Part shown: positions 3-16,426 of the stretch, one piece after another
How positions within the stretch are numbered: position 1 is the stretch's first letter
Layout: every line of letters starts with the position of its first letter
Assembly: GCA_937899415.1 (NCBI GenBank)
Contig: CALBPI010000060.1
Coordinates: 124,001-188,000 of the forward strand
From: an uncultured Gammaproteobacteria bacterium
GTDB lineage: Bacteria; Pseudomonadota; Gammaproteobacteria; Steroidobacterales; Woeseiaceae
Length of the DNA stretch: 64,000 nt
Direction of reading: 5' to 3'
Program-made: the position numbers and the translations under genes
Notes under the pieces: model-generated
Database searches by the model: none
Seen by the model: the letters and a program-made list of their open reading frames with translations, nothing else
What the model was told of the DNA's origin: nothing

Positions 3-1478
3 CAGTTCAACCTGTTCCTCGACGGTGACGCGATTGGTCCCAACACGCCCGAGACGCAGGCGGAGTACCTGGCCAACCGCGGCCTGGACGCCGTGGCCAC
101 GGGCGCGACGTTCACTTTTGCCGACAATGGTGATGTGCTGCCGGCCAACTACCTGCTGTTCGGCAACCGCACGCTGGACCGCTGGCGCGATGCCACGGAT
201 TTCTCGGCCGAGTTCAGCGTCGGTCGCAATCTCACCATCGGTGACGCGGAGCATGCAATCACGATTGGTGCCTTTTTCTCGGACTCGCAGGCCGATGACC
301 TGAACTACATCACGACCTATCTGGGGGAGTTCAGCAACGCACCGCGCCTCGTCAATGTGACGCTCGATGATGTCGCTGATGACGGCACGGGCCAGGGCAA
401 CCTGATTGCCGCGGCCGGTTCGACCTACCAGTGGGTCGTCAACGGGCTCGCCAACGCCAATGGTCTTGTGGGCAACCGCGATCGCAGCGCCAGCCGCACG
501 GCGTTCTACATCGCCGATCAGATCGAGATGAACGACTGGTCCTTCGACTTCGGTGCACGCGTTGAGCGTCTTGATGGTGATGTACGGCAGTTCAACACCA
601 GCTCGTTCCAGCTCGCCAACGACCCGCTCGTAAACGACGCGTTGGAAAACGTGAGCTTCACGGACGGTTCGCTGACGGCTGACACTGTAAGCGCCACGGA
701 ATGGGCGTTCTCGGCCGGTGCGTTATACCGCCTCAACGATACGACCAACCTGTTTGCCAATGCCTCGCGTGGCTTCTTCTTCCCGCAGATTCGAAGCGTT
801 CCGTTTAACAACGGACAACTCGCGTCGTACGAAGGGGAGATCATCGACACCATCGAGGCCGGTGTGAAGTTCGAGCATGACAGCTGGGACGCTTACGCGG
901 CGCTGTTCTACACAACGCTCGATGATCGTCGCAACGTTGACTTCGTGAACGACCCGAACAACCCGGGCAACATCATCGAAGAGGTGACGACCCAGTCGAC
1001 GGAGGCCTTCGGTATCGAGGCCAGCGCGACCTACTACATCAATGACTACTGGTCACTGCACGGCAACATCACGTTGCGCGACCATGAGTTCACTGAGGCG
1101 GGTAACCCTGCGGTGGTCGGTCAGGAACTGCGTCGTCAGCCCACCGAGTTGGCCAACAGCGCTGTGCGCTTCAACTACGGCAACTTCGATGCGGCGCTGT
1201 TCCACAACTTCCATGGCGATAATTTCGCCAATGACACCAACAGCGTGAAGCTCGACAGCTACAATCTGGTGCGTCTGGAGGCGGGGTACACGTTTGAACT
1301 CGACAATGCGCAAACCGCTCGTGTCAGCGTACACGTGTTCAACCTGACGGATGAGCAGGGCATCACAGAAGGCTCGCCGCGCCAGGGCAACGCCCAGTCG
1401 GGCCAGCCTGCGCAGTTCTTCGTGGGACGACCGATTCTCCCCCGTCGAGTCATGCTCAGACTCGCTTACGATTTCTGA
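3..1478 (+). CDS. TonB-dependent receptor, C-terminal part (5' end outside window)
   Basis: This is the 3' end of an outer-membrane TonB-dependent receptor. The frame is open from base 3 and about 491 residues are visible, so the plug domain and signal peptide lie outside the window. The visible part is beta-barrel: alternating polar/aromatic strands, the typical barrel motif NASRGFFFPQ, a late NLTDEQGITEGSPR segment, and a terminal strand ending RLAYDF with the C-terminal Phe used by the BAM machinery. It lies 114 bases upstream of a sodium symporter and four sugar/glycerate enzymes on the same strand, so I infer it imports the substrate of that locus. A weak hairpin terminator may separate them, so cotranscription is uncertain. 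Confidence 0.93.
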   Translation, partial: QFNLFLDGDAIGPNTPETQAEYLANRGLDAVATGATFTFADNGDVLPANYLLFGNRTLDRWRDATDFSAEFSVGRNLTIGDAEHAITIGAFFSDSQADDLNYITTYLGEFSNAPRLVNVTLDDVADDGTGQGNLIAAAGSTYQWVVNGLANANGLVGNRDRSASRTAFYIADQIEMNDWSFDFGARVERLDGDVRQFNTSSFQLANDPLVNDALENVSFTDGSLTADTVSATEWAFSAGALYRLNDTTNLFANASRGFFFPQIRSVPFNNGQLASYEGEIIDTIEAGVKFEHDSWDAYAALFYTTLDDRRNVDFVNDPNNPGNIIEEVTTQSTEAFGIEASATYYINDYWSLHGNITLRDHEFTEAGNPAVVGQELRRQPTELANSAVRFNYGNFDAALFHNFHGDNFANDTNSVKLDSYNLVRLEAGYTFELDNAQTARVSVHVFNLTDEQGITEGSPRQGNAQSGQPAQFFVGRPILPRRVMLRLAYDF

Positions 1479-1521
1479 GTTGACTCGCGCCCCGGCGGGC
1501 GGTTGTGCAACCCCGCAACGC

Positions 1522-1545
1522 GCCCCTGCCCGCTGGGGCACTTTT
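1522..1545 (+). terminator. Possible weak intrinsic terminator after TonB receptor
   Basis: A GCCCC / GGGGC stem (1522-1526 with 1535-1539, 8-base loop) is followed by a short T run at 1542-1545. The stem is short and the T tract has only four bases, so it may only attenuate readthrough into the symporter gene. Confidence 0.35.
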
Positions 1546-1592
1546 CTCGACGCGCCGCAGCCGCGGCGAGTCAGATTGCCGGGTGATCGTTC

Positions 1593-3182
1593 ATGAATGA
1601 ACTCGACTACGTTGTCGTCGCGCTCTACATGGGCGGGCTGCTTTTGTTCGGCTTTATGCTGCGCGACCAGTCCAGTGAAGGGGACTACTTCCTGGGTGGA
1701 CGCAGCATGGGCTGGTTCCCGCTCACGCTCTCGACGATGGCGACACAGCTCTCCGCGATCAGCTTCGTCTCGGCGCCGGCCTTCGTCGGCCTGCGAGATG
1801 GCGGTGGCCTCAAATGGCTGACCTACGAATTTTCCCTGCCACTGGCGATGATTCTCGTGATGTTCGTCATCGCGCCCGCGCTGTACCGCGCGGGAATTGT
1901 CAGCATCTATGAGTTTCTTGAAAACCGATTCGGGCGCGGCACACGCATCCTGATCAGCGCGTCATTCCAGATCGTGCGCTCGTTCGCCACGGGCATCATG
2001 GTCTACGCGATGGGTCTGATCCTCGAGGCCGTCATCGGCATCCCACTCTGGCAGTCCCTGTTTGTGGTCGGGATCATCACGCTCGTTTACTCGACATCCG
2101 GTGGGATGAAGGCCGTCGTTTACGGCGACGCCATCCAGATGTTCCTGATTTTCGGCGGGCTGCTCGTCGTGACGATTTATGCGCTGGCCGATATTGGCGG
2201 CATGGGCGCGTTCTGGCAGCAGGTCGACACCGAGCGACTCGTGGCCGTGGATTTCGATGACCTGGGCCTGAACGGTGACGAGTTCGGCTTTATCCCGATG
2301 CTGTTTGGTGGCTTTGTCTTGTACGCCTCCTACTACGGCTGCGACCAGACGCAGGCCCAGCGCATCATCTCTGCCAAGAACCTGAAAGACACGCGCGTGC
2401 TGTTGTTCGCCAATGGCATTTTGCGGTTTCCGCTCGTGCTGCTGTACTGCTTCGCGGGCCTGATTGTCGGCGTGGCCGTCATGGGCGATCCGGAGCTCGC
2501 GTCCAAGATTCCGGCCGACAAGCCCGACTACATGATGCCGATCTTTATCGTCGAGCATTTGCCGCATGGCGTGATCGGTTTGCTGCTCGTCGCCATCATG
2601 GCGGCCGCCATGTCGTCACTCAGCTCGGCTGTGAATTCGCTGGCGGCGGTGACCATGGAGGACTTGTCCGTGCTGGGCTTCCGACCGGAGACCGAACGCA
2701 AACAGGTCGTGCTTGCGCGCAGCGTTTCGGTCTTCTGGGGCATTGCGATTCTCATCATGTCGCTGTTCGCGGGCGCCATCGCGCCCACGGTCATCGAGGC
2801 CATTAACAAGGTGGGCTCGGCGCTCTACGGTCCGATCCTCGCGGTGTTCCTCATGGGCATTCTGACGCGGCGCGTCAATGGCCCGGGGGCCAGCATCGGG
2901 CTGCTTGTCGGCATGGGCTTCAATCTCTACCTCTGGAAGTCGCAGCCGCAGATCTTCTGGATGTGGTGGAACTTCATCGGGCTCGTGCTCACGACCGTCG
3001 TGGCCTTCGTTGTCAGCGCCTTTGCTAAGGCAGGGACTGAGGAAGCCGCGCCCGAGTCCGAGCCAAGCGGCTTTGCGGACATCCTTCGTTCGCGTTACAC
3101 CGTGGCACTCGTCGCCGTGTTTGGCTTGATCGTCGTGATCAGCACAGTCCTCAAGGACGCCAAGTCGTGGTTCGTGCCGTAG
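1593..3182 (+). CDS. Sodium:solute symporter (SSS family)
   Basis: A 529-residue inner-membrane protein of the sodium:solute symporter family, which couples inward sodium flow to uptake of sugars or other organic solutes. The N-terminal signature DYFLGGRSMGWF and about 13-14 hydrophobic segments through the whole length match the SGLT-like fold; a short hydrophilic linker (roughly residues 480-500) precedes the last helix. Start ATG at 1593. It is followed after 5 bases by the glycerate kinase gene, so it is likely cotranscribed with the hydrolase, sugar kinase and isomerase. I infer that its substrate is the hexosyl-glycerate handled by those enzymes; the sequence alone does not prove this. 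Confidence 0.93.
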   Translation: MNELDYVVVALYMGGLLLFGFMLRDQSSEGDYFLGGRSMGWFPLTLSTMATQLSAISFVSAPAFVGLRDGGGLKWLTYEFSLPLAMILVMFVIAPALYRAGIVSIYEFLENRFGRGTRILISASFQIVRSFATGIMVYAMGLILEAVIGIPLWQSLFVVGIITLVYSTSGGMKAVVYGDAIQMFLIFGGLLVVTIYALADIGGMGAFWQQVDTERLVAVDFDDLGLNGDEFGFIPMLFGGFVLYASYYGCDQTQAQRIISAKNLKDTRVLLFANGILRFPLVLLYCFAGLIVGVAVMGDPELASKIPADKPDYMMPIFIVEHLPHGVIGLLLVAIMAAAMSSLSSAVNSLAAVTMEDLSVLGFRPETERKQVVLARSVSVFWGIAILIMSLFAGAIAPTVIEAINKVGSALYGPILAVFLMGILTRRVNGPGASIGLLVGMGFNLYLWKSQPQIFWMWWNFIGLVLTTVVAFVVSAFAKAGTEEAAPESEPSGFADILRSRYTVALVAVFGLIVVISTVLKDAKSWFVP

Positions 3183-3187
3183 ACGAC

Positions 3188-4444
3188 ATGAACGGCTCGA
3201 ACCGGGATGTGCTTGAGCACTGGTTCCGGGTGGGCGTCGAACGCTGCCTGCCCCGAACCGTGTTGCCGCCTGTGTTGCCGCAGGACCCGCCCGTGGGTCG
3301 CAACATCGTGTTGGGCGCGGGCAAGGCTGCGGCCGCCATGGCCGCGGTTGCCCACGAGCGGCTGCGGGGCAAAACGGTCGGTCTCGTCGTCACGCGCTAC
3401 GGGCATGGTGAGACCGCTTCGACGGGCAACATCGAAGTTGTCGAGGCCAGCCATCCCGTGCCCGATGTTCAGTCCGAGGTCGCGGCCGCACGCATGCTGG
3501 AACTGGCGGCCGGCGCCACGCCGGACGATCGTGTGCTGTTCATGATGTCCGGTGGTGGCTCGGCATTACTGTGCGCGCCGATTGACGGTGTGCTGGCAGA
3601 GAAAAAACGTGCGGTCACGGGCTTCCTTCTGCACAGCGGCGCGCCGATTCAGGACATGAATTGCGTTCGCAAACACCTGTCACGGATCAAGGGTGGCGGA
3701 CTCGCGCATGCGGCGTCGGCCGCCGAGCTCAGGACGTTTGCCATCTCAGATGTCGTGGGTGACGCACTGACCGATATTGCTTCGGGACCGTCTGTGCACT
3801 ACGAGCGTGACGTCGCGACCGCCATCGTCGTACTCGAGAAATACGGTTACGCGGGGGCGCGGGATTTTGAGTCTGCGATGCTGGCGGCGGATGTCATCGA
3901 CGCACCGCTGCACGATGCGCGCGTCGTTGCCAATGCGGCCATGGCGCTCGCTGCGATCGCGCGCGAAGCCGCCAACCAGGGCTGGACACCGGTGCTGCTG
4001 GGCGATGATCTCGAAGGCCGGGCCCTGGACATCGGGCGAGCCCACGCAGGCATTGCGCGACACTACCGCTCGCAGCCAGGGCGTCACGCGCTGATCTCCG
4101 GTGGCGAGCTCACCGTTGAGGTGAAGAACACGGTGGGTCGTGGCGGCCCCAACCTCGAATACCTGGCGAGTCTCATGTTGAACCTGGACGGCCTCGCCGG
4201 CGTCGAGGCGATCGCCTGCGACAGTGACGGCATCGACGGCTCTGAAGACAACGCGGGGGGCTATATCGGTCCGGACTCGCTCGAGCGCGCACGCACGCTG
4301 GGTATCGATCCCGGCCGCCTGCTGGAACTCAACGATACGTATGTAGGGTTTGAAGCCCTCGGCGATCTCATCGTGACGGGGCCCACGCTCACCAATATCA
4401 ACGATATCCGGGTCATTCTCGTGGACCCGGCGCAAGAGGCTTAG
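3188..4444 (+). CDS. Glycerate 2-kinase, MOFRL family
   Basis: Predicted cytoplasmic kinase that phosphorylates D-glycerate to 2-phosphoglycerate, feeding lower glycolysis. The 418-residue protein has the N-terminal glycine-rich stretch GAGKAAAAMA, the motif MSGGGSALL near one third, and a C-terminal MOFRL domain with GGPNLEYLASLM and CDSDGIDGSEDNAGG. I chose ATG 3188, just after the symporter stop; an in-frame start at 3167 would overlap the symporter by 16 bases. The hydrolase gene starts 4 bases after the stop. In this context it would use the glycerate released from a glycosyl-glycerate. Confidence 0.92.
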   Translation: MNGSNRDVLEHWFRVGVERCLPRTVLPPVLPQDPPVGRNIVLGAGKAAAAMAAVAHERLRGKTVGLVVTRYGHGETASTGNIEVVEASHPVPDVQSEVAAARMLELAAGATPDDRVLFMMSGGGSALLCAPIDGVLAEKKRAVTGFLLHSGAPIQDMNCVRKHLSRIKGGGLAHAASAAELRTFAISDVVGDALTDIASGPSVHYERDVATAIVVLEKYGYAGARDFESAMLAADVIDAPLHDARVVANAAMALAAIAREAANQGWTPVLLGDDLEGRALDIGRAHAGIARHYRSQPGRHALISGGELTVEVKNTVGRGGPNLEYLASLMLNLDGLAGVEAIACDSDGIDGSEDNAGGYIGPDSLERARTLGIDPGRLLELNDTYVGFEALGDLIVTGPTLTNINDIRVILVDPAQEA

Positions 4445-4448
4445 TTCT

Positions 4449-5717
4449 GTGCAACAGGGAATCGACCAGGCAGCACGCCACATTCTCGAGACGAACGACA
4501 AGGGTGGCTTCACCGTGCCGACGTCGGGGCTGTATCCCTACCAATGGAATTGGGACTCGGTCTTTGTCGCGCTGGGCTTCGCGCAATTCGATCCCGCGCG
4601 GGCCTGTCGGGAAATAGAGACGCTCTTCGAGGCGCAGTGGGATGACGGCTTCGTGCCGCACATCATTTTCCGACGAGACGACCCGGACTACTTCCCCGGC
4701 CCGAGCTTCTGGCAGGCTGGCGCGAAGCTGCCGTCATCGGGGATCACACAACCACCGGTCGCCGCGACGGCAATACGCATGCTCAGGGACACGACAGCCG
4801 ACACGGCTGTACGAGAGCGTATCGACGCGCTGTTCAAGCCCGTACTCGAGTGGCACCGCTGGTTCATGCGTTACCGGGTGCCGGAGTCTTGTGGCGCCGT
4901 CGTGATTACACATCCCTGGGAAAGTGGACGCGACAACTCGCCGGAATGGGACGCTGCGGCTGCAAATATCGACGTCTCGCAGGTTGGGCCTTACACGCGC
5001 CGCGACCTGGCGCACGCGGACGCTGACATGCGGCCTACGAAGCTCGACTACGACCGCTACGTGGCGCTTGTTGAGTTCGGGCGTGACACCGGGTGGGATC
5101 ACGGCGCGATCGCGACGGGTGGGCCGTTCCGCGTGGCCGATGTCGGGATGACCATGATCTTGTTGCGCGCGATGCGTGATCTTATTGCGCTCGCCGAGGC
5201 CACGGGTCACAGCGACGACATCGACGAGCTCGAAAGCTACGTGGTGCGATTGAATCGCGGCGTTGAATACCTCTGGAATGCGGAGTCGGACACCTTCTGT
5301 TCGCGCGACACGATCACGGGCGCACACTCAGGTTTTGTCACGAGCGCGTCCTTTCTTTACGCCTACGCCGATGCCGGCACGCCGGAGCAGCGCGCCAAGA
5401 TGGCGGCGCACTGGCATCGGATCTCGAGCCGCGTGGAGTACATGGTGCCGAGTCACGACCCCGACGACGTGCTGTTCGATCACAGGCGGTATTGGCGCGG
5501 CCCCGTGTGGATCGTCGTGAACTACATGATTGCCATCGGGTTCCGAGAACAAGGCCTCGATGACTGGGCGGACCGAGTGCGGTCGGACTCCCAGCGCATG
5601 ATTCGTGAGCATGGGTTCAGCGAGGCGTTCTCACCGCTGGATGCCGGTGGCACGGGTGGGACCAACTTCTCGTGGACGGCGGCCATGTGGCTCGCCTGGT
5701 GTGGCCAAGGTAGCTGA
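4449..5717 (+). CDS. GH63-type mannosylglycerate/glucosylglycerate hydrolase
   Basis: A 422-residue predicted (alpha/alpha)6-barrel glycosidase resembling the GH63 mannosylglycerate hydrolase of Thermus and glucosylglycerate hydrolase of mycobacteria, which split the alpha-hexosyl bond to glycerate. Visible family motifs are YPYQWNWDS near residue 30, HPWESGRDNSPEWD near 155-168 and SEAFSPLDAGGTG near 391. By motif alignment from memory, D162 and E392 are the likely catalytic acid and base. There is no signal peptide, so it acts in the cytoplasm. Start GTG 4449, four bases after the glycerate kinase stop. Neighbouring glycerate kinase, mannose-isomerase-type enzyme and fructokinase-type enzyme fit both products of mannosylglycerate hydrolysis. 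A trehalase or other alpha-glycosidase activity cannot be excluded. Confidence 0.82.
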   Translation: MQQGIDQAARHILETNDKGGFTVPTSGLYPYQWNWDSVFVALGFAQFDPARACREIETLFEAQWDDGFVPHIIFRRDDPDYFPGPSFWQAGAKLPSSGITQPPVAATAIRMLRDTTADTAVRERIDALFKPVLEWHRWFMRYRVPESCGAVVITHPWESGRDNSPEWDAAAANIDVSQVGPYTRRDLAHADADMRPTKLDYDRYVALVEFGRDTGWDHGAIATGGPFRVADVGMTMILLRAMRDLIALAEATGHSDDIDELESYVVRLNRGVEYLWNAESDTFCSRDTITGAHSGFVTSASFLYAYADAGTPEQRAKMAAHWHRISSRVEYMVPSHDPDDVLFDHRRYWRGPVWIVVNYMIAIGFREQGLDDWADRVRSDSQRMIREHGFSEAFSPLDAGGTGGTNFSWTAAMWLAWCGQGS

Positions 5718-5720
5718 TCC

Positions 5721-6686
5721 ATGAGCCGCGTGGTGTGCTTCGGCGAGGCGCTGATCGACTTTCTGAACACGGGGCAACAGCTCGACGGCGAGCTGATGCT
5801 CAACAGTTTCACGCAATACCCGGGCGGTGCACCTGCCAATGCGGCGGTGGCTGTGGCGAGGCTGGGCGGTCGTGCAGCGTTTGCAGGCCAGGTCGGTGAT
5901 GACGCCTTTGGCCAGTTCCTGTTGCGCGCGCTCAGGCGCTACGGCGTCGATACGGCGCACACGGCCGTGCATGAGACGGCGCCAACGCCGTTGGCCTTCG
6001 TGTTCCTGGACGCGGAGGGCGAACGCAGTTTTACGTTTCGGCGTGATGGCACTGCAGATATCGTGCTCGAGGCGGCGCAGATTTCCGATGCCTGGTTTGT
6101 AGACACGGGGATCGCGCATTTCTGCAGCAACACAATGACCGATGCGCACTGCGCTTCTGTGACGGCGCATTTCGTCTCCCGCGCGAAGGCACACGGTGCG
6201 GTCGTGAGCTTTGATGTCAATTTGCGCCACAACCTGTGGCCAGACGGCACCGTCGACATCGATACAGTCAACGCGCTCGTCTACAAGGCGGATCTCGTCA
6301 AATTTGCTCGCGAGGAGCTCGACCACCTGAGCGAGGGCGATGAGGCGGCATACCTGTCGCGGTGTTTCGAACACGGCGTTATTGCCGCACTGGTGACCGA
6401 CGGCCCGAACCCGCTGGAGATACGAACCGCGACCGCATCGACGACGGTGGTGCCGCCGACCGTAACCGCAGTGGACACCACAGGCGGTGGCGATGCGTTC
6501 ATCGGTGCCGTGCTGTTTGGGCTCAGTCAGGATTCGAAGCCCGCGGTCTATCTCGCGGATGACGTGAGGCTCCCGCGTCTGGTCGCCTCGGCGGCGCATT
6601 GCGGTGCGCTGGCCGTGACACGCCGCGGCGCGTTTCCGTCGTTCCCCACCTTCGCGGATGTGGCCGGTATCTGGGACGCGCCATGA
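5721..6686 (+). CDS. PfkB-family sugar kinase, probable fructokinase
   Basis: A 321-residue ribokinase/PfkB-family kinase of normal length. Both signatures are visible: the N-terminal substrate motif YPGGAPANAAV with the downstream QVGDDAFG, and the C-terminal ATP motif VDTTGGGDAF, whose final Asp is the catalytic base (the usual GAGD reads GGGD). The family includes fructokinases that make fructose-6-phosphate. It starts 3 bases after the hydrolase stop and overlaps the isomerase gene by 4 bases, so the three are translated as a unit. If the isomerase turns mannose into fructose, this enzyme is the natural next step. 2-keto-3-deoxygluconate or ribose kinase activity is possible from sequence alone. 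Confidence 0.9.
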   Translation: MSRVVCFGEALIDFLNTGQQLDGELMLNSFTQYPGGAPANAAVAVARLGGRAAFAGQVGDDAFGQFLLRALRRYGVDTAHTAVHETAPTPLAFVFLDAEGERSFTFRRDGTADIVLEAAQISDAWFVDTGIAHFCSNTMTDAHCASVTAHFVSRAKAHGAVVSFDVNLRHNLWPDGTVDIDTVNALVYKADLVKFAREELDHLSEGDEAAYLSRCFEHGVIAALVTDGPNPLEIRTATASTTVVPPTVTAVDTTGGGDAFIGAVLFGLSQDSKPAVYLADDVRLPRLVASAAHCGALAVTRRGAFPSFPTFADVAGIWDAP

Positions 6687-7861
6687 CCCGATTTTCCGCC
6701 CCGGCCTTCTTGCGCGAACACATCCGATCGATTCTCGACTTCTACGCGCCGAGCGTGAAGGACCCCGCGGGCGGATTCTTCCAGAACTTCCGCGACGACG
6801 GCAGCGTATTTGCGCCCGGTGAGCGTCACCTCGTGAGCAGCTGCCGGATGGTTGTGAACTACTGCCGTGCCTATGAGCTCTTCGGCGATACCGTCTATCG
6901 TGATCTCGCCATCCACGGGCTCGAGTTTCTTCGCAGCGTGCACTGGGACCCGTCGCGTCGGGGTTTCAACTGGACCCTGCGTGCGGGCACGCGGCCTGTC
7001 GATCAAACCAACCACTGCTACGGATTGGCGTTTGTGGTATTGACGACAGCCGCCGCGCGCAAGGTGGACTTGTCGGGCGCCGAGGACGATCTCGAACGCG
7101 CCTGGGGCATCATGGAGACGCGGCTCTGGGACGCCGACGCGGGTCTCTATGCCGACGAGGCCACGCCCGACTGGTCGCGCGTTGATCCCTACCGCGGACA
7201 GAACGCCAACATGCACAGCTGCGAGGCGTTTATCGAGGCCTTCGAGGCGACGGCGGAACAGAAGTACCTGGATCGCGCCGTCGCGCTGGCGCGTCGTGTC
7301 ACGGTAGAGCTGGCTAAACAGTCCAATGATCTGGTGTGGGAGCACTTCACACCTGAGCTTGCGATCGACTGGGACTACAACCGCGACGATCCCAAAAACC
7401 TCTATCGACCCTGGGGCTTTCAGCCGGGTCACCAGACAGAGTGGACGAAGCTCTTGCTGACGCTGCATGGCTTGTGTCCCGAGTCCTGGATGCTGACGCG
7501 CGCGGCTGCGCTATTCGATCGCGCGCTGGACGTCGCCTGGGACGATGCGCATGGCGGCATTTTCTACGGCTTTGCGCCCGATGGGACGATTTGCGACGAC
7601 GACAAATACTTCTGGGTGCAGGCAGAGTCGTTCGCGGCCAGTCACCGCCTGTTCCAACACACAGGCGAGGCAAAGTACGCCGATTGGTACCGCAAGATCT
7701 GGCAGTACGCCTGGGACCATTTCGTCGACCATGAGCATGGCGGCTGGTACCGCGTGCTGACCGCTGATGGCCGCAAGTACAGCGACGAGAAGTCCACAGC
7801 AGGCGGCAAATGCGACTATCACACGATCGGCGCCTGCTGGGACGTGCTGCGCGCACCGTAG
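6683..7861 (+). CDS. AGE-family aldose-ketose isomerase, probable mannose isomerase
   Basis: A 392-residue member of the N-acylglucosamine 2-epimerase/YihS superfamily, (alpha/alpha)6 barrel. Three His residues stand where the catalytic histidines of mannose isomerase and YihS stand: H178 in NMHSCEA, H250 in PGHQTEW and H380 in CDYHTIG, with E181, E253 and E315 nearby. Such enzymes interconvert mannose and fructose (YihS-type also glucose or sulfoquinovose). ATG 6683 overlaps the kinase stop (ATGA), which decides the start over an upstream in-frame ATG at 6599. It is the last gene of the predicted hexosyl-glycerate operon. Cellobiose 2-epimerase activity is a less likely alternative because the neighbours process monosaccharides. 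Confidence 0.88.
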   Translation: MTRFSAPAFLREHIRSILDFYAPSVKDPAGGFFQNFRDDGSVFAPGERHLVSSCRMVVNYCRAYELFGDTVYRDLAIHGLEFLRSVHWDPSRRGFNWTLRAGTRPVDQTNHCYGLAFVVLTTAAARKVDLSGAEDDLERAWGIMETRLWDADAGLYADEATPDWSRVDPYRGQNANMHSCEAFIEAFEATAEQKYLDRAVALARRVTVELAKQSNDLVWEHFTPELAIDWDYNRDDPKNLYRPWGFQPGHQTEWTKLLLTLHGLCPESWMLTRAAALFDRALDVAWDDAHGGIFYGFAPDGTICDDDKYFWVQAESFAASHRLFQHTGEAKYADWYRKIWQYAWDHFVDHEHGGWYRVLTADGRKYSDEKSTAGGKCDYHTIGACWDVLRAP

Positions 7862-7895: not shown

Positions 7896-8038
7896 GCACT
7901 GTCAAGCTTTTGGACTCGGCGATTCCTCGACGCAGGGCGTCCTTTCTGGTGGTTTCGTGTGGTACCTTCGGTCGACTGGGGTTGTGTGCGAACCCCCTAA
8001 ATCGTGGGACGACATACCTGTTCAGGGGAGGGCAGGGA

Positions 8039-9538
8039 ATGGACGACGTCCAGGGGAATACGGTCTTCACCGAAGTCCGCGACAGCCGTTATTCGGGCGA
8101 TGCCACGCTCGAAGAACTGCAAATCGCTGTCGAAAACGCAATGACTGGCATTTCGTGGCTCGACACCGACGGCGTATTCCGTCAGGTGCGCGACGGCTAT
8201 GCGGCGATGCTGGGATATACGCCGGCCGAGTTGATTGGGTCTTCCTGGGCTGTGACGGTGCCGGAGAGTGATCAGCCGACGGCAGTCGAAGCCGTGCACA
8301 AGATGCTCGACGAGAGTCGTGCGACCGTTGAAACGCGCGCGATTCGTAAAGACGGCAGCATCTTTTATAAACGCCTCTTGCTCGTGAAGACCGTGGATGC
8401 GGGTGGTCGTCACAACGGGCACTACTGTTTTATGAGCGACATCAGTGCGCGGAAAGAGGCGCAGCGTCGACTCGTCGACGCGGAGCGACTCAAAACGATT
8501 GGCACGATGGCGGGCGGCATCGCGCACGACCTCAACAACCTGCTCACGCCCATCGTAGGCGGTGCGGAGCTGATTGCGGCAACCCGCTGCCAGCACGAAG
8601 CGCCCGCGCGGTCGATTCACGAGGCGGCCGCGCGCGCCCAGGAACTGATCGGCCGACTGCTCAAGTTCAGCAGCGCTGAGCGCGAGCAGAAAAAGCCTGT
8701 GAACCTGAGCAATGCGGTAAGTGTGGCGTTGCAGTTCGTGATGGGATCGTTGCCGGCCAACGTCGCGGTTGAGGCGGACTACAGCGCTGAAGCGGACACG
8801 GTGTTGGGCCTCGAGGTGTCGCTCGAGCTCATTGTCATGAACCTGGTGGCGAACGCCGGGCATGCGATGCGGGATGATGGTGGGACACTGCATGTCAGCC
8901 TGCGCAACACGAGCCCCAACGAAGTCGAACTCGTTGTGACCGATACCGGATCCGGCATCGCGGCCGAACGTATTGACCGCATTTTCGACGCCTTCTACAC
9001 CACGAAGCCGCCTGCCGAAGGTACGGGGCTTGGTTTGCTCATGGTGCGCGAGGCCGTAGAAGATATGGGGGGACGAATCAGTGTCACCTCAACCGAAGGC
9101 GAAGGTTCAGAGTTTCGCGTGGTGTTGCCTGTGAGTCAGGCATCAACAGAGTCAGATGAAAAGGACAACGCGCATGAGACGCCGAGCCTTCGCATCATGG
9201 TAATCGATGACGAGAAGCCCGTGCTCGACGTGGGCTGCGGCATGCTCGAACACCTGGGCCACCAAACCGACGGTTTTTCAGACCCGGCTGATGCGCTGGC
9301 AGCATCATCCGGCGACTACGACCTCGTCATCACGGACTACCGCATCGGCGGTGTGTCCGGTCTCGACGTGATCGAGAAGCTGGAAGGCTACTCCGGCCCG
9401 ATCATCCTGATCTCGGGCCATATCGACAGCTCGCAGACCCTGCCCGACAAGGTCACGGCCTGCCTACCCAAGCCTTTTCGTATTCTCGATCTGCAAGAGG
9501 TCATTCACAGCGTCTTGCAGCATTCGTCATCCGCGTGA
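8039..9538 (+). CDS. Soluble PAS hybrid sensor histidine kinase with receiver domain
   Basis: A 499-residue cytoplasmic hybrid kinase with no membrane segment. Order: PAS domain (about 25-140, with a PAC-like FMSDIS end), HisKA helix with the NtrB-like box GGIAHDLNNLLTP and phospho-acceptor H163, HATPase_c with the N box near 271 and TGLGL-type G box near 330, then a receiver domain (about 385-495) with D433 as phosphorylation site and S459 and K478 conserved. ATG 8039 is chosen because GGGAGGG lies just upstream; the frame is open further 5'. Its stop overlaps the GTG of tctC (GTGA), so it is cotranscribed with the first tricarboxylate transporter. No DNA-binding output domain is present; its partner is unknown. 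Confidence 0.9.
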   Translation: MDDVQGNTVFTEVRDSRYSGDATLEELQIAVENAMTGISWLDTDGVFRQVRDGYAAMLGYTPAELIGSSWAVTVPESDQPTAVEAVHKMLDESRATVETRAIRKDGSIFYKRLLLVKTVDAGGRHNGHYCFMSDISARKEAQRRLVDAERLKTIGTMAGGIAHDLNNLLTPIVGGAELIAATRCQHEAPARSIHEAAARAQELIGRLLKFSSAEREQKKPVNLSNAVSVALQFVMGSLPANVAVEADYSAEADTVLGLEVSLELIVMNLVANAGHAMRDDGGTLHVSLRNTSPNEVELVVTDTGSGIAAERIDRIFDAFYTTKPPAEGTGLGLLMVREAVEDMGGRISVTSTEGEGSEFRVVLPVSQASTESDEKDNAHETPSLRIMVIDDEKPVLDVGCGMLEHLGHQTDGFSDPADALAASSGDYDLVITDYRIGGVSGLDVIEKLEGYSGPIILISGHIDSSQTLPDKVTACLPKPFRILDLQEVIHSVLQHSSSA

Positions 9539-10530
9539 AACAGCGCGGTCTTCAGTGGACGGCTTCGCGGTTGGCGCGGTTCGCAGGAACGGTCTGTCTG
9601 CTACTGTGTCTGGCCTTCTCTGGTAGCGTTAGCGCGGCGGATCGCGTTCACTTCCTGATTCCAGGTGGGGCGGGTGGCGGCTGGGACAGCACGGCGCGGG
9701 GCGTCGGTGAGGCACTCGCGCGATCCGGCTTAGTTGAGGTTGCGTCATACGAGAATCTATCGGGCGGCGGTGGCAGTCGGGCGATGGCACACCTGATCGA
9801 AACTGCCGACCGGCAGACCAACACGCTGATGATCAGTTCGTCTCCGATCATTCTGCGTTCACTGAGAAATCTCTACCCACAGTCTTATCGTGACCTCACA
9901 CCAGTTGCCAGCGTCGTCGTCGATTACGGGGCATTCGTGGTGCGTGTGGATTCTCCCTATGAGTCCTGGCAAGACGTGATCGATGATTTTTCCGCCAACC
10001 CACGGGGCGTCAACATCGCAGGTGGGTCATCACGTGCGAGCATGGATCACATTGTCGCCGCGCTGGCCTTCCAGAAATCCGGGGTCGACGCGCGACAAAT
10101 GAAATACATCCCCTATAACGCGGGCGGGCACGCAATGGTTGGCCTGTTGTCTGGCGAGACGCAGCTCTTGTCGACGGGCCTAAGCGAAGCAATTGCACTT
10201 GCAGATCAAGGTGAAGTACGCATTTTGGCCATGACGGCGCCCGATCGTCTCGAGCGTGTGCCTGATGTGCCGACACTGGTAGAGCAGGGCGTCCCTGCGG
10301 TATTTTCGAATTGGCGGGGTTTTTTCGCGGCGCCCGGCGCTTCAGCCGCGCAAATCCAACAATTTCGGGCGACCTTATCCGCGCTCTTCGAAACCGATGC
10401 GTGGCGCACAATCCGCGAATTGCGCGGTTGGACCGACTTTCATGTGACCGGTGACGCTTTCGATACATTCCTTGATCAGCAGGAACAGGACATGGCGGTT
10501 CTACTGCGGGAGCTCGGGCTGCTCGAATAG
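9535..10530 (+). CDS. tctC: TctC/Bug-family periplasmic solute-binding protein
   Basis: A 331-residue exported binding protein of the tripartite tricarboxylate transporter (TTT) system. An N-terminal signal peptide (hydrophobic core about residues 19-34, cleavage near SVSAA) precedes the typical first strand HFLIPGGAGGGWDSTARGV; the family ligand loops follow. It would deliver a carboxylate to the TctBA permease encoded next. GTG 9535 overlaps the stop of the histidine kinase gene, which indicates translational coupling. Length matches the Bug family (about 320). The ligand (citrate, tricarballylate, another di/tricarboxylate) cannot be read from sequence. Confidence 0.92.
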   Translation: MKQRGLQWTASRLARFAGTVCLLLCLAFSGSVSAADRVHFLIPGGAGGGWDSTARGVGEALARSGLVEVASYENLSGGGGSRAMAHLIETADRQTNTLMISSSPIILRSLRNLYPQSYRDLTPVASVVVDYGAFVVRVDSPYESWQDVIDDFSANPRGVNIAGGSSRASMDHIVAALAFQKSGVDARQMKYIPYNAGGHAMVGLLSGETQLLSTGLSEAIALADQGEVRILAMTAPDRLERVPDVPTLVEQGVPAVFSNWRGFFAAPGASAAQIQQFRATLSALFETDAWRTIRELRGWTDFHVTGDAFDTFLDQQEQDMAVLLRELGLLE

Positions 10531-10545
10531 CGGGCGGCTGGCGCT

Positions 10546-10579
10546 CGAAACCGGTTTGAAAGGAAACGGCGACTAGAAT
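10546..10579 (+). promoter_or_regulatory. Putative TctD-type direct repeat and promoter before tctBA
   Basis: CGAAAC (10546-10551) and TGAAAG (10557-10562) repeat with an 11-base period, and a -10-like TAGAAT follows at 10574-10579. The layout copies the two stronger TGAAAG repeats at the tctD/TonB-receptor divergent promoters near 20.77 kb. TTGAAA at 10556 with TTATAT at 10579 is an alternative ordinary promoter reading. Confidence 0.4.
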
Positions 10580-10612
10580 TATATCTGCGGTGGTACAGGC
10601 CGCGTCGTCGTC

Positions 10613-11107
10613 ATGCGAATCCTCGATAACAAAGACCGGGTAGGGGGGCTACTCATACTGGCATTTGCCGTAGCGTACTTGCGCTACGCACTCGTATTGC
10701 CGTTGGACCCAACCGATCCCAATGCATCGTTCACCTCGCGGACTTTGCCCGTTGGGCTAGCCGTGGCGTCGATTGTGTTCGCGCTCGTGCAGCTGGCAAT
10801 GAGTTTCAGAGGGGGCTCCGGTGGCAGCATCCGCGAGGCCGTGCGCGGCTACCGGTGGCGGCCCATGCTCTTGTTGCTGGTGCTCATGCTGGGCTACTCC
10901 CTGATGTTCCAGACGCTTGGGTTTCTGGTGTCCAGCTTTACGTTCTTGCTACTCGGCTTTTTCATCATGGGCGAGCGCCGAATCATTCTCAGCGTGGTTG
11001 TGGCGGGGGGTCTCGTGACTTTGCTCTGGGCGCTTTTGACTCAGGCGTTTGGCCTGTTCCTTGATCCTGGTGATCTCATGCGTGCGATCGTGGGGTCGGC
11101 CGGGTGA
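10613..11107 (+). CDS. tctB: TctB-family small permease subunit
   Basis: A 164-residue integral membrane protein with four predicted helices, the layout of the poorly conserved small TctB subunit of TTT transporters: a helix near the N-terminus (GLLILAFAVAYL), one at about 45-65, and a pair after residue 80. Start ATG 10613. Its stop overlaps the GTG of the large permease gene by 4 bases. Assignment rests mostly on position between tctC and tctA and on the helix pattern. Confidence 0.87.
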   Translation: MRILDNKDRVGGLLILAFAVAYLRYALVLPLDPTDPNASFTSRTLPVGLAVASIVFALVQLAMSFRGGSGGSIREAVRGYRWRPMLLLLVLMLGYSLMFQTLGFLVSSFTFLLLGFFIMGERRIILSVVVAGGLVTLLWALLTQAFGLFLDPGDLMRAIVGSAG

Positions 11108-12630
11108 TCGACGGCATTCTCACGGGCCTGCAAACCGCCTTCTCCCCGATCAACCTGCTTATGGTGTTCGTCGGGTGTTTTGCGGGGACCTTTATCGGAA
11201 TGCTGCCCGGTCTCGGGCCAGTCTCCGCGATTGCGCTCATGATTCCGATCACCTACGGGCTTGACCCCGCGTCCGGCCTCATTCTTATCGCGGGCGTCTA
11301 TTACGGCGCCATTTTCGGCGGGTCGACGTCCGCCATCCTGATTAACGCGCCGGGCGTCTCGGGCGCGGTTGCGACGGCCTTTGATGGCTACCCCTTGGCG
11401 CAGCGTGGCCAGGCGGGCAAGGCCCTGGCGATTGCGGCTTACGGTTCCTTCGCCGGAGGCACGGTAGGGGCGATCCTGTTGCTGGTCTTTGTGCCATTCC
11501 TCGCCAAGGTCAGTCTGAGCTTTCAGTCTGCGGACTATTTCGCATTGATGCTTTTTGGTTGCACGGCCGTTGCCGCCTTCTCGGGCAAAGGCCAGGTGGT
11601 TAAAGCCATCCTAATGACACTGCTGGGACTGATGCTCGCAACCGTCGGTGAAGACCCGTCGGGTATTCAACGGTTCACATTCGGCAATGCAGATTTCTAC
11701 GACGGGATCAGCTTTCTGTTGCTGTCTATGGCGACGTTTGCGCTGGCCGAAGCGCTGATCGTTGTACTTCGGGGGAGCGGCGGTTCGGCAACCGCAAGCG
11801 ATCTTGAGAAAGACAAGCTAGGGTCGATGAAGTTGTCCAGTGATGAGGTTAGGGATATCGCACCTGCCGTGGGCCGCTCATCGATCTTGGGTTTCTTCGT
11901 GGGCATCCTGCCAGGCGCTGGCGCGACGATCGCATCGTTTCTCGCCTACGGCATGGAGCGCAATGCGGCGCCCGGAGATAAAAAGGAAGAATTCGGCGAC
12001 GGTAGTCACCGTGGCCTTGCGGCGCCAGAGACGGCAAACAATGCGGCTTCAACGGGCTCATTTGTGCCCTTGCTCACCCTTGGTATTCCGGGCTCGGCCA
12101 CCACGGCTGTGATGCTCGGCGCGCTGCTCTCCTACGGTGTGCAGCCGGGTCCGAGGCGCTACATCGACAGCCCCGCAGTCTTCTGGTCGGTCATTATCTC
12201 GATGTATGTGGGCAACATTATCCTGCTGGTGCTGAATCTGCCGCTGATCCCCTACATCTCAAAGCTGCTTAGCGTCCCACGTCAGCTGTTGACGCCGATC
12301 ATCCTTTTCTTCTCGCTCATGGGCGTGTATCTGGTCTCCTTCAACACGATCGATCTATCGATGATGGTCGCTATTGGTGCCATCGCTGTGGTTATCCGGA
12401 TTCTCGATTATCCGCTCGCACCCCTGTTGCTCGGCTTCATCCTGGGCGGGATGCTTGAAGACAACCTGAGAAGGGCCCTACTGATTTGGGATGGCTCGTT
12501 TGCGTTCCTTTGGCAGCGGCCGATTACGGCAACCATCATGGTCATCACGCTGCTGACCTTACTGATTCCGGTGATCGGATCGCTGCGCGATGGGCGTCGC
12601 GCACGCCATCCCGACCCGTTCATGGAGTAG
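11104..12630 (+). CDS. tctA: TctA-family large permease subunit
   Basis: A 508-residue, about 12-helix inner-membrane permease of the TTT family. Family motifs visible include GCFAGTFIGMLPGLGPVSAI near residue 30, YYGAIFGGSTSAILIN, FDGYPLAQRGQAGKALAIA, GFFVGILPGAGATIASF and LTLGIPGSATTAVMLGAL, which is the duplicated glycine/proline-rich signature. It moves carboxylates with a cation gradient using the TctC protein as receptor. GTG 11104 overlaps the tctB stop. The gene is followed 5 bases later by an unusual extra binding lipoprotein. Confidence 0.95.
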   Translation: MIDGILTGLQTAFSPINLLMVFVGCFAGTFIGMLPGLGPVSAIALMIPITYGLDPASGLILIAGVYYGAIFGGSTSAILINAPGVSGAVATAFDGYPLAQRGQAGKALAIAAYGSFAGGTVGAILLLVFVPFLAKVSLSFQSADYFALMLFGCTAVAAFSGKGQVVKAILMTLLGLMLATVGEDPSGIQRFTFGNADFYDGISFLLLSMATFALAEALIVVLRGSGGSATASDLEKDKLGSMKLSSDEVRDIAPAVGRSSILGFFVGILPGAGATIASFLAYGMERNAAPGDKKEEFGDGSHRGLAAPETANNAASTGSFVPLLTLGIPGSATTAVMLGALLSYGVQPGPRRYIDSPAVFWSVIISMYVGNIILLVLNLPLIPYISKLLSVPRQLLTPIILFFSLMGVYLVSFNTIDLSMMVAIGAIAVVIRILDYPLAPLLLGFILGGMLEDNLRRALLIWDGSFAFLWQRPITATIMVITLLTLLIPVIGSLRDGRRARHPDPFME

Positions 12631-12635
12631 ATCTG

Positions 12636-13469
12636 ATGCAACGTTGGTGGCACCGCGCAAATCGCTTGATAGTCGGCCTGGGTTTCGCACTGCTGATCGG
12701 TGCCTGTCAGGTTTCGTCTTCGCATCAAGCTGAGCGCGCTCAAGATCAGACGCGCGAGTTGCGCGTGGTCACCTCGGGCGGATTTGCGGCGGCGTACACG
12801 CTCCTCTCACCTGAGTTCGAAGCGCAGACTGGCGTTCGGCTTGTCACCGCCTACGGTTCGTCATCTGGCGGCGCGCCCGACTCCATTCCAATGCGGTTGG
12901 AGCGCAGTGAGCCCTTCGACGTCATCATTCTTTCGAAACCGTCACTCAACAATTTGACGGAGCTGGGTTACCTGCGACCCGAATCACGCCGGGATCTCGT
13001 TCGGTCCTCGATTGGTATGGCCGTTCGCGAGGGCGCTGCCGTGCCGGATATCTCGACGCCCGAGGCATTTCAAGCGGTGCTTCTTGAAGCCGCCTCCATT
13101 GGCTATTCGGCCAGCGCCAGCGGTACCTATCTGTCGACTGATTTATTCCCGCGACTTGGGATTTGGGGGGCGCTCGAGCCCAAAAGCACACGTATCCTTA
13201 GCGAGCGTGTCGCAAGCGTCGTTGCGCGTGGTGACGTAGAGATCGGCTTTCAGCAGATTAGTGAGATTCTGCCCATCGAGGGCGCGCACTATGTCGGGCC
13301 CATTCCCGCTGCGTATCAAAGGGTCACGACGTTTTCGACGGGCATCACGAAGGGGGCCAGGAATGTGAGCGATGCACAGCGACTCATCGAGTTCCTGTCG
13401 TCTATCGAGGTTGCGCCTCGCGTTGCAGAAACCGGGCTTTCTCCGGTTGTGTTGGAGCAGGGGCCATGA
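12636..13469 (+). CDS. Orphan ModA-like substrate-binding lipoprotein
   Basis: A 277-residue extracytoplasmic binding protein. Signal: MQRWWHRANRL then a hydrophobic run ending LLIGAC, a plausible lipobox with Cys25. The mature protein has the type-2 periplasmic fold seen in molybdate/sulfate-type binding proteins (RELRVVTSGGFAAAY, FDVIILSKP, then IGYSASASGTYL). There is no ABC ATPase or permease gene nearby; it sits between tctA (5 bases upstream) and a second tctC (ATGA overlap). I infer that it is an accessory receptor for a TTT transporter or a ligand sensor, a role not established for the family. Oxyanion binding is the alternative. Confidence 0.82.
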   Translation: MQRWWHRANRLIVGLGFALLIGACQVSSSHQAERAQDQTRELRVVTSGGFAAAYTLLSPEFEAQTGVRLVTAYGSSSGGAPDSIPMRLERSEPFDVIILSKPSLNNLTELGYLRPESRRDLVRSSIGMAVREGAAVPDISTPEAFQAVLLEAASIGYSASASGTYLSTDLFPRLGIWGALEPKSTRILSERVASVVARGDVEIGFQQISEILPIEGAHYVGPIPAAYQRVTTFSTGITKGARNVSDAQRLIEFLSSIEVAPRVAETGLSPVVLEQGP

Positions 13470-14446
13470 TGTGTCGACGGGTCACATGGTGCATCGTGGT
13501 CGCGCTGTGGTTGGCCTCGCCGACTGCGACCGCCGATGACTATCCGGAGCGTCCAATTACCATCGTTGTGGGCTTCGGTGTCGGAGGTAGTGCGGATCGC
13601 ATGACGCGGGCCATGTCGAGCTTCATCGGTGACGCCATTGGTCAGCCCGTTCAGGTCATCAACAAGAGAGGGGCTGGCACGCTGCTCGCGGCAAACTATG
13701 TGCTCGATCAGCCTCACGATGGCTACACCGTGTTCGCCTCCGGCTTTTCGCCCTATTTGTCGAATACCATTCTCGAAGGTAATGCGGATTACACCATCGA
13801 TGACTTCGCCTACGTCAATTTTCAGTGGTTCGACGAAGACCTGATCGCGCTGAACAAGGATTCGGAATACGAAAGCCTCGCGGACCTGCTCGACGATATT
13901 CGCGACAACCCAAAGACAGTGCGGGGTGCCGTGGTGCGTGGGTCGGGCGGGCACCTGATGGCGAAGCTGCTGCTTGAAGTCAGCGGTATTCCGCAGAAGA
14001 ACGTCAACCTCGTTGCCTACAACAGCGGTGGACTGGCGCGCGCTGCTGTCGCCGGGCACGTGGTCGACTTCATCGTAATTAGTGCGGAAGGTACCGAGAG
14101 CATTCGCGAGTACATTCGTCCGCTGGCCATTGTCAGCCGCCAGCGCAATCCAAAATGGGATGCGCCAACACTTACGGAGGTGATGTCGAAGCTGGGAATT
14201 GACGTGCCGGTGTTGCCCGGGTCGATCCGTGGCTTTGCAACGACCGCGGAATTCAAACGCCAATACCCGGCACGATTCGACAAACTCGTCGAAGCGATGC
14301 GGGTAGCCCTCGAAAACGAGGCGCTGATCACACTACTCGACCAGGCATCGATCGGCGGGCGATGGACGGGGCCCGAGGCGTCCGAAAGTACAATGAAAGA
14401 AACATTCCGTATCTTCCGGGACTATTCCTACCTGCTCAAGGAATAG
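13466..14446 (+). CDS. tctC: TctC/Bug-family periplasmic solute-binding protein (second system)
   Basis: A 326-residue exported protein: signal peptide MMCRRVTWCIVVALWLASPT with cleavage near ATADD, then the Bug-family opening YPERPITIVVGFGVGGSADRM and a conserved GYTVF region. It is the receptor of the second TTT transporter in this locus. ATG 13466 overlaps the preceding lipoprotein stop. It differs clearly from the first TctC, so the two systems probably have different substrates or affinities rather than being a recent duplication. Confidence 0.92.
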   Translation: MMCRRVTWCIVVALWLASPTATADDYPERPITIVVGFGVGGSADRMTRAMSSFIGDAIGQPVQVINKRGAGTLLAANYVLDQPHDGYTVFASGFSPYLSNTILEGNADYTIDDFAYVNFQWFDEDLIALNKDSEYESLADLLDDIRDNPKTVRGAVVRGSGGHLMAKLLLEVSGIPQKNVNLVAYNSGGLARAAVAGHVVDFIVISAEGTESIREYIRPLAIVSRQRNPKWDAPTLTEVMSKLGIDVPVLPGSIRGFATTAEFKRQYPARFDKLVEAMRVALENEALITLLDQASIGGRWTGPEASESTMKETFRIFRDYSYLLKE

Positions 14447-14453
14447 CCAGTCC

Positions 14454-14921
14454 GTGTCCGTGCCATCCGCAAGCTTCGATAGATACCGCATCGCCGACCT
14501 GTGTGTGATCGTGGTGTTGGCCGGTCTCGTGGCGTGGTATTGCATCGATGCGGTTCAGGCGTCCCGCAACATCTACAACCTGATCTTTGTGCTTCCGGTC
14601 TCGGGACTTGTACTTGTCTTGTGCACCGTTCAGTTCATCGTGGGCGCGACAAAGCTGCGCCGGCCGCAAACCGAGCAAGAGCCCATTGCCCACATCGTGC
14701 CTGTGGTCGCGCTATTTGCGGCCTACGTTTTGTCATTGCACTGGCTGGGTTTTGACGTCGGGACGTTCCTGTTTCTTTCCGTGTTCCTTTGGATTCACGG
14801 CGAGCGTCGCCTGCCCTGGCTGTTCGCCTACTCGCTCGTATTTGCGGCACTTGTGTCCTTGTTCTTCTCGAAGATGCTGCCGTACCCCATGCCCATGCTG
14901 CTGTTGCCGACAGCGTACTAG
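14454..14921 (+). CDS. tctB: TctB-family small permease subunit (second system)
   Basis: A 155-residue, four-helix membrane protein with the spacing of TctB: helices at about 12-32, 43-63, 81-101 and 115-150, the last long hydrophobic region probably being two helices. GTG 14454 lies 8 bases after tctC; the next gene begins 5 bases after its stop. Identity is supported by position in a C-B-A order and by the DVGTFLFLSVFLWIHGERR segment, which resembles the equivalent loop of the first TctB (LGFFIMGERR). Confidence 0.86.
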   Translation: MSVPSASFDRYRIADLCVIVVLAGLVAWYCIDAVQASRNIYNLIFVLPVSGLVLVLCTVQFIVGATKLRRPQTEQEPIAHIVPVVALFAAYVLSLHWLGFDVGTFLFLSVFLWIHGERRLPWLFAYSLVFAALVSLFFSKMLPYPMPMLLLPTAY

Positions 14922-14926
14922 TCGCC

Positions 14927-16426
14927 GTGATTGATTTCGACGCATTGCAGGCGGCGTTTTCGATGTTGTTCTCGAGCGCGTCGCCCTGGCTTATCGTGAT
15001 CCCGGGCATTCTGATCGGTCTCGTCTTCGGTGCGATTCCGGGGCTGCAGATTTCCATGGCCATGGCCATTTTCCTGCCTATGACGCTGTACATGGACTTC
15101 ATGCAGGCCATGCTGTTTCTCACTGCGATTTTTACGGGCGGCGGATTCGGCGGCAGCATCCCGGCGGTTCTTATGAATATTCCGGGTACCTCGTCCGCGA
15201 TTGCGACCGCATTTGACGGTTATCCGATGTCACGCGCGGGAAAGCACAACCTGGCTTTGGGTGTCGCCCTGGGTGCCTCGTGCCTCGGTGTGCTCGTGGG
15301 CTACACGATTCTGCTCATGCTCATCAATCCCATTTCGGAGCTGGTCTTAAAGATCGGTCCCGCGGAAATGTCGGTCGTCATCTTGTGGGGCATTACGCTG
15401 ATCGGTGGACTGAGTGGCGGCAACCTGCTCAAGGGCGTCATCTCGGGTCTTGTGGGTCTGCTCGTCGGCACGATCGGCTACAGCGAGGCGGGTGTTGCAC
15501 GCGGTACGTTCGGCAGTGCCTATCTACTCGACGGCGTTCCCGTGATTCCGGCAATGATTGGCATGTTTGCGGCATCGGAGTTGTTCAGGCTCGTTAAGAC
15601 GGACTACCTCGTCGAGGATGATGCGGCGCGCAAGGTTAATGTAAGGCAGGTGCTGTCGGGATTTCGCAGTGCATTGTCAAAACCCTGGATCGTGCTTCGC
15701 GGCAGCTTCATTGGAGTGTTTGTGGGCTCGGTGCCTGGTGTTGGATCGTCAGTGGCCAATCTGTTGTCGTACATGGCGACCAAGCGTAAGCACCCGGATC
15801 CCGAGTCGTTCGGCAAAGGCAATCCACACGGCGTCATGGCGTCAGAGGCAGCGAACAGCACCTCAGAAGCCGGATCGATGGCGACGTTGCTGGCATTGGG
15901 TATCCCGGGCGGCGGCGCGACGGCCGTCATGTTGGCGGCATTTGCCATGCACAACATCACAGGCGGCCCGCAGTTTATTCGCGAGGAAACTGACGTCGTC
16001 TACGCGATCATCCTGGCAAATTTCGGGCAGGCGTTTTTGTTGATCGGTCTGGGCTTGTTGCTCATTCCTGTGTTGGCGAACGTGGTCAAGGTGCCCATGA
16101 CCTATCTGGTCCCTTCGGTACTGGCTATGGCCGTTTTCGGGTCATTCGGTCTCACAGGTGACCTGAGCGGGCCCATCACGGTGCTCGTCTTCTCTGTCGT
16201 TGGCTGGCTGTTCAAGCGCTACGGCTATTCGGTACCGGCTGCGGTCATCGGCATCCTGCTGGGCAGCATGGCTGAGGATTCCATCATTTACGCCTACCAG
16301 ATCAGTGGCGGGCAATGGTCCTACCTACTGGAGCGGCCACTTGCCATGGCGATCCTCGTCATGCTCGCGTTCTCGTTGTTCGGCGGCCATTTCGTCAAGT
16401 TGCTGACCCAGCGCGTACGGCGGTGA
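14927..16426 (+). CDS. tctA: TctA-family large permease subunit (second system)
   Basis: A 499-residue, about 12-helix TTT permease. Motifs: IGLVFGAIPGLQISMAMA near residue 30, FTGGGFGGSIPAVLMNIPGT, FDGYPMSRAGKHNLALG, GVFVGSVPGVGSSVANLL and LLALGIPGGGATAVMLAAF. GTG 14927 is preferred: it lies 5 bases after the tctB stop, whereas the frame open further upstream would run through tctB. It overlaps the next gene by 4 bases. With the second TctC and TctB it forms a complete transporter. Confidence 0.94.
   Translation: MIDFDALQAAFSMLFSSASPWLIVIPGILIGLVFGAIPGLQISMAMAIFLPMTLYMDFMQAMLFLTAIFTGGGFGGSIPAVLMNIPGTSSAIATAFDGYPMSRAGKHNLALGVALGASCLGVLVGYTILLMLINPISELVLKIGPAEMSVVILWGITLIGGLSGGNLLKGVISGLVGLLVGTIGYSEAGVARGTFGSAYLLDGVPVIPAMIGMFAASELFRLVKTDYLVEDDAARKVNVRQVLSGFRSALSKPWIVLRGSFIGVFVGSVPGVGSSVANLLSYMATKRKHPDPESFGKGNPHGVMASEAANSTSEAGSMATLLALGIPGGGATAVMLAAFAMHNITGGPQFIREETDVVYAIILANFGQAFLLIGLGLLLIPVLANVVKVPMTYLVPSVLAMAVFGSFGLTGDLSGPITVLVFSVVGWLFKRYGYSVPAAVIGILLGSMAEDSIIYAYQISGGQWSYLLERPLAMAILVMLAFSLFGGHFVKLLTQRVRR

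Follow-up and report, generated by a model that had tools for sequence, protein, structure and literature searches.

Which solute is imported and degraded by the products of a compact gene cluster at the start of a 64,000-base stretch of DNA from an uncultured marine-sediment gammaproteobacterium of the family Woeseiaceae? This stretch, hereafter the window (coordinates 1-64000), corresponds to bases 124001-188000 of contig 60 (C60) in a draft genome of 3.94 Mb that is 98% complete, and it opens within a gene for a TonB-dependent outer-membrane receptor, behind which lie genes for a symporter and four enzymes. Positions beyond the upstream edge are given on L002, a stretch of the contig that reaches further upstream. 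We consider it probable, on the basis of the comparisons set out below, that the cluster forms a complete operon, induced by its solute, with which the cell scavenges mannosylglycerate (2-O-alpha-D-mannosyl-D-glycerate; the protective compound of red algae known as digeneaside) and possibly glucosylglycerate as well.

The C-terminal part of the receptor, which forms the barrel (PF00593, E=1e-31), occupies positions 1-1478 of the forward strand and is cut by the window edge, while the full open reading frame of 834 amino acids was read at L002:8974-11478, starting 1027 bases upstream of the window. It is followed on the same strand by genes for a sodium:solute symporter of the SSS family (1593-3182; PF00474, E=1.6e-47; TIGR00813, 250.8 bits, above its cut-off), which is a conserved neighbour, a predicted D-glycerate 2-kinase with MOFRL and DUF4147 domains (3188-4444 from its ATG, with an alternative GTG at 3167; PF13660, 6e-69; PF05161, 8e-30), a putative mannosylglycerate/glucosylglycerate hydrolase of the MGH1-like type in the GH63 clan (4449-5717; PF22422), a predicted PfkB fructokinase (5721-6686; PF00294, 7e-52) with the motif DTTGGGDAF, and a candidate D-mannose isomerase of the AGE family (6683-7861; PF07221, 2e-96, 323.5 bits), the ATG of which overlaps the fructokinase stop codon. 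The spacings from symporter to isomerase (1593-7861) are 5, 4, 3 and -4 bases. Both open reading frames and domains agree with a preliminary description of this DNA, in which five genes of these families were placed in a row on one strand behind a TonB receptor, with gaps of 5 bases or fewer or overlaps. Receptor and symporter are separated by 114 bases that include a weak terminator-like hairpin. A sigma-70 scan detected no promoter-like sites inside the operon, which is weakly consistent with a single transcript. A rho-independent terminator directly 3' of the isomerase gene was also considered and dropped, since the RNA fold at this position is unremarkable (z = -0.5).

In the proposed route, the receptor would carry mannosylglycerate over the outer membrane and the symporter would bring it intact into the cytoplasm, where the MGH-type hydrolase, acting as an inverting enzyme, would split it into D-mannose and D-glycerate. 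Mannose would then be isomerized to fructose by the AGE protein and fructose phosphorylated to fructose-6-phosphate by the PfkB kinase, while the MOFRL kinase would convert glycerate into 2-phosphoglycerate, so that both halves of the solute could reach glycolysis without a mannokinase or a phosphomannose isomerase. Glucosylglycerate would perhaps be cleaved too, its glucose passing to a glucokinase encoded elsewhere in the genome. A ROK protein would bind a 25-bp imperfect palindrome that overlaps the -35 box ahead of the receptor gene, and would keep the operon repressed until the solute or one of its breakdown products releases it. The actual substrate and the specificity of transport are what we infer from the evidence that follows.

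The hydrolase matches PF22422 over the whole profile (1-356 of 356, 360 bits), a family for which only 3 of 274 genomes of the class have a match above a strict cut-off, and its nearest relatives, in metagenome-assembled genomes of Woeseiaceae, are 65-71% identical to it. Its identity is 46% to the Thermus mannosylglycerate hydrolase TtMgH (2z07, E=1e-106) and 34% to the mycobacterial glucosylglycerate hydrolase MhGgH. Moreover, in pairwise alignments all 13 active-site residues examined (two catalytic and 11 that contact the ligand, as given for MhGgH in PMC6608630) are identical to those of both enzymes, with Asp162 as the predicted acid and Glu392 as the predicted base. By domain and active-site residues the protein is, thus, an MGH/GgH-type enzyme, for which hydrolysis of mannosylglycerate is predicted. 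At the enzyme level, glucosylglycerate is a likely co-substrate, since TtMgH-type enzymes act on both compounds with similar efficiency (PMC6608630).

As for the enzymes that would receive the products, the best PDB match of the PfkB kinase is the fructokinase 3ljs (E=2e-63), whereas the glycerate kinase, with its DUF4147 and MOFRL domains, is of class II and matches the Thermotoga glycerate kinase 2b8n (E=1e-64). The AGE protein is 52% identical to 5x32, which we take to be the Marinomonas mannose isomerase, and 54% identical to 3gt5. It lies far nearer to this mannose-isomerase-type branch than to the YihS sulfoquinovose isomerase or cellobiose epimerase branches, its His178, His250 and His380 align with both structures, and it is predicted to isomerize mannose to fructose. 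AGE and the MOFRL kinase occur in one copy each in the genome, both inside the operon. Searches of the genome for a GarK/GlxK-type glycerate kinase (PF02595) and for a type I phosphomannose isomerase gave no match, while both families were detected in control genomes. MpgS was likewise not found in a genome search that covered this synthesis route and no other, which favours scavenging over recycling; the host probably does not synthesize the solute through MpgS, and recycling of an endogenous solute was set aside within that scope.

Divergent from the receptor, just upstream of the window, is the gene for the ROK regulator (L002:7595-8839, reverse strand; up to 415 amino acids; PF00480, 93 bits). 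The ROK domain together with a weak match to an N-terminal MarR_2 helix (24.8 bits, below the 27-bit cut-off) corresponds to the architecture of NagC/Mlc-type regulators. Between this gene and the receptor sits a 25-bp imperfect palindrome, AATAATACTCACTATGGGTTGTATA (C60:122839-122863, equal to L002:8839-8863; 1138-1162 bases upstream of window base 1). Its right arm has TTGTAT, 17 bases before CATAAA, so that a protein bound to the palindrome would cover this putative -35 box. Variants of the palindrome occupy the same position in other Woeseiaceae loci and in those alphaproteobacterial loci that have the ROK regulator. A 25-base degenerate form with at most two mismatches has a single match in the 3.94-Mb genome and none in a reversed control, and a relaxed form run over 101 genomes of the family recovered five complete operons, the window's own included, and one unrelated site with one mismatch; as these loci had themselves supplied the pattern, the scan of the family is a test of specificity and not of discovery. 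The locus, thus, holds a ROK-family regulator with a conserved local palindromic site in the divergent promoter. Binding of the protein to this operator is predicted, and we infer that it acts as a repressor, with regard to both the direction and the sign of regulation.

As far as the contigs extend, the order of ROK regulator, TonB-dependent receptor, SSS symporter, glycerate kinase, hydrolase, fructokinase and AGE isomerase is the same in eight other loci (L011-L017 and L051), seven of them labelled Woeseiaceae and one Lysobacterales, and this recurrence argues that the arrangement is not due to chance. The five-gene order was found again in these loci, as the preliminary description had suggested might be sought, although some of them lack one or the other kinase gene. 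Hydrolases accompanied by AGE form one clade of the hydrolase tree (support 100/99), and loci with both isomerase and fructokinase are restricted to one hydrolase clade, so that conservation of the exact gene order throughout the phylum was dropped; elsewhere the hydrolase accompanies ABC, MFS or SSS importers. Long branches make the deep placement of TtMgH and MhGgH in this tree unreliable. A receptor of the operon's family is encoded in 34 of 81 loci. Loci of Alphaproteobacteria and Cellvibrionales have a ROK-type fructokinase instead of the fructokinase and isomerase pair beside receptor, glycerate kinase and hydrolase, often with an MFS transporter, and in a large alphaproteobacterial group ABC importers are found with the hydrolase. 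Across loci the hydrolase is constant while regulators and importers vary, and the adjoining sugar kinases are of fructokinase and not of glucokinase type. As a separate observation, Sphingomonas-type loci (L025, L028, L031, L032 and L035 (5' half)) combine the hydrolase with a LysR regulator, a glycerate kinase and an MFS importer, and share recurrent unannotated gene families (clusters 12, 15 and 22).

Further information on the transported compound comes from sister loci in three other Woeseiaceae genomes (L097:1023-12101, L098:1395-10205 and L099:1513-10198), which hold a ROK gene, a receptor and a symporter of the same families, and an MGH paralogue (39-42% identical) on the opposite strand. 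Between receptor and symporter, all three encode a GH13_18 protein of 570-582 amino acids, whose closest relatives of known structure are glucosylglycerol and sucrose phosphorylases and which has TETN and a PYELN loop in every copy. The marks of glucosylglycerate phosphorylase (GGaP) are (T/S)ETN and a loop-A Glu (PMC7178133), and PYELN and TETN are given as GGaP marks elsewhere (PMC10608839). The presence of this predicted GGaP, which is unrelated to the hydrolase, ties the set of receptor, symporter and ROK regulator to glycosyl-glycerates, and its position points to glycosyl-glycerates as the cargo of the two transport proteins. L097 additionally encodes a PfkB fructokinase and an AGE protein, divergent from the hydrolase.

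Several observations weigh against mannosylglycerate or against the specificities assigned above. The best NCBIfam models fall short of their cut-offs for the hydrolase (NF047898, glucosylglycerate hydrolase equivalog, 337 bits against 550), for the isomerase (NF051846, D-mannose isomerase, 219.6 bits against 600, which places it in another branch than the Pseudomonas-type model) and for the PfkB kinase (PRK09434, fructokinase, 204.5 bits against 450), and the glycerate kinase is also below its equivalog cut-off; the exact specificities are, thus, homology-based and not certified. Glycerate kinase is missing in L013 and L051, and fructokinase in L011 and L013. A protein with a type II PMI/GMP domain is encoded elsewhere in the genome, which leaves some possibility to a mannose-6-phosphate route. 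So is a glucokinase and, given the dual substrate use of TtMgH-type enzymes, the identity of the hexose is drawn from the neighbouring genes only. Finally, a solute of 268 Da does not obviously need a TonB receptor, and the nearest named receptor models are siderophore-type.

Some of these points converge in the rival explanation that survives best, unlikely as we judge it, in which glucosylglycerate is the main natural substrate, the freed glucose goes to the glucokinase of the genome, and the isomerase and fructokinase act on mannose or fructose of other origin. Such a role would agree with the name of the closest hydrolase model, with the acceptance of both glycosyl-glycerates by TtMgH-type enzymes (PMC6608630) and with the occurrence of glucosylglycerate as a solute of marine picocyanobacteria (PMC3686209). 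However, it leaves the isomerase and the fructokinase unexplained, although they share the transcription unit of the hydrolase and track its clade in Woeseiaceae. Moreover, the hydrolase is nearer to TtMgH than to MhGgH, and an MGH-type hydrolase is retained even where the predicted GGaP occurs, with fructokinase and AGE genes adjoining in L097. The presence of the receptor would be better explained by a larger or modified glycosyl-glycerate, such as mannosylglyceramide, mannosyl-glucosylglycerate or a glycolipid headgroup; the receptor is a constant partner, and a carbon-nitrogen hydrolase (a possible amidase) and a GH30 enzyme are encoded just upstream. Nevertheless, a larger ligand has no conserved gene support and the active sites of characterized MGH/GgH enzymes are capped narrow tunnels that fit a small ligand (PMC6608630), which makes this explanation quite improbable. 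A general cluster for mannose and fructose utilization, with a glycosidase of the GH63 clan present by chance and acting on short alpha-mannosides, would resemble the mannoside pathways of Shewanella with their isomerase, kinase, TonB receptor and permease (PMC2996990), but it is hardly credible in view of the complete set of MGH/GgH ligand-site residues and of the operon's MOFRL kinase, the only glycerate kinase found in the genome.

Scavenging of mannosylglycerate, therefore, remains the preferred explanation. The complete import and catabolism route proposed in the preliminary description gains support at each step from specific homology and, overall, from conserved order, gene counts, the operator and the sister phosphorylase with GGaP motifs. 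The choice of mannosylglycerate has to be qualified, as glucosylglycerate may be a co-substrate. Red-algal digeneaside is, on ecological grounds, a plausible source of the solute.

Beyond the operon, the GH30 glycosidase and, after it, the carbon-nitrogen hydrolase of the nitrilase superfamily lie at L002:4999-7592, 5' of the ROK gene; homologues were not found in related loci and both were dropped as pathway members. Downstream, positions 7910-16426 of the window encode a PAS hybrid histidine kinase and, after it, two sets of tripartite tricarboxylate transporters (TctC/TctB/TctA) in tandem, with a solute-binding protein at ~12630-13469. These genes are not conserved beside homologous loci and were likewise dropped as operon members.

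The locus provides a complete set of genes, open to experimental test, through which bacteria common in sediments could feed on a compatible solute that is widespread among algae and microbes. It also suggests functions for a TonB receptor, a symporter and a ROK regulator that would otherwise have none assigned, and its operator and gene signature can be used to find glycosyl-glycerate users in metagenomes. In a broader sense, we lean, with considerable reserve, towards the existence of a dedicated glycosyl-glycerate regulon in Woeseiaceae and several alphaproteobacteria, which would comprise a TonB receptor for the active uptake of an osmolyte of 268 Da, an SSS symporter with specificity for mannosyl- and glucosylglycerate, a new ROK regulator with a 25-bp operator, and interchangeable modules of isomerase plus PfkB kinase, ROK fructokinase or phosphorylase. 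If so, bacteria that are very common in marine sediments would draw carbon from the compatible solutes of algae and cyanobacteria.

In E. coli, the mngR-mngA-mngB system combines uptake and phosphorylation by a phosphotransferase system (PTS) with a GH38 mannosidase and a GntR-type regulator. It likewise serves the regulated uptake and hydrolysis of mannosylglycerate, but its PTS permease, GH38 mannosidase and GntR-type regulator are not present here, where an SSS symporter and an MGH1-like hydrolase are found instead. The hydrolases of Thermus thermophilus and Rubrobacter radiotolerans and the GgH of Mycolicibacterium hassiacum share the family, the active site and the products, hexose and glycerate (PMC6608630); however, they are described as enzymes, MhGgH in recovery from nitrogen starvation, whereas the present hydrolase belongs to an import operon in a genome in which MpgS was not found. 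GGaP (GH13_18) is often encoded beside glycerate kinase, a context from which glycosyl-glycerate catabolism has been deduced; it acts by phosphorolysis, is glucose-specific (PMC7178133), and has a homologue in the sister Woeseiaceae loci but none was found in the window genome. Zobellia galactanivorans has been credited with genes for digeneaside degradation, which were also found in Maribacter dokdonensis (PMC8072126), and a polysaccharide utilization locus (PUL) has been proposed to have digeneaside as its substrate (PMC6298971). The earlier statement that no operon of this make-up had been described was, in the light of that attribution, too strong, although these hosts are Bacteroidota, marine bacteria for which use of this solute is likewise proposed. 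The Man pathway of Shewanella (ManI, ManK, ManP and a TonB receptor), predicted by comparative genomics, handles mannose through the same isomerase and kinase steps, but its entry lists no glycerate branch (PMC2996990), which the present operon has. Thus, all enzyme families, the mannosylglycerate hydrolases, GGaP and the predicted isomerase-kinase mannoside route of Shewanella were already known, while the make-up of the gammaproteobacterial operon, its ROK operator and the sister arrangement with GGaP are new.

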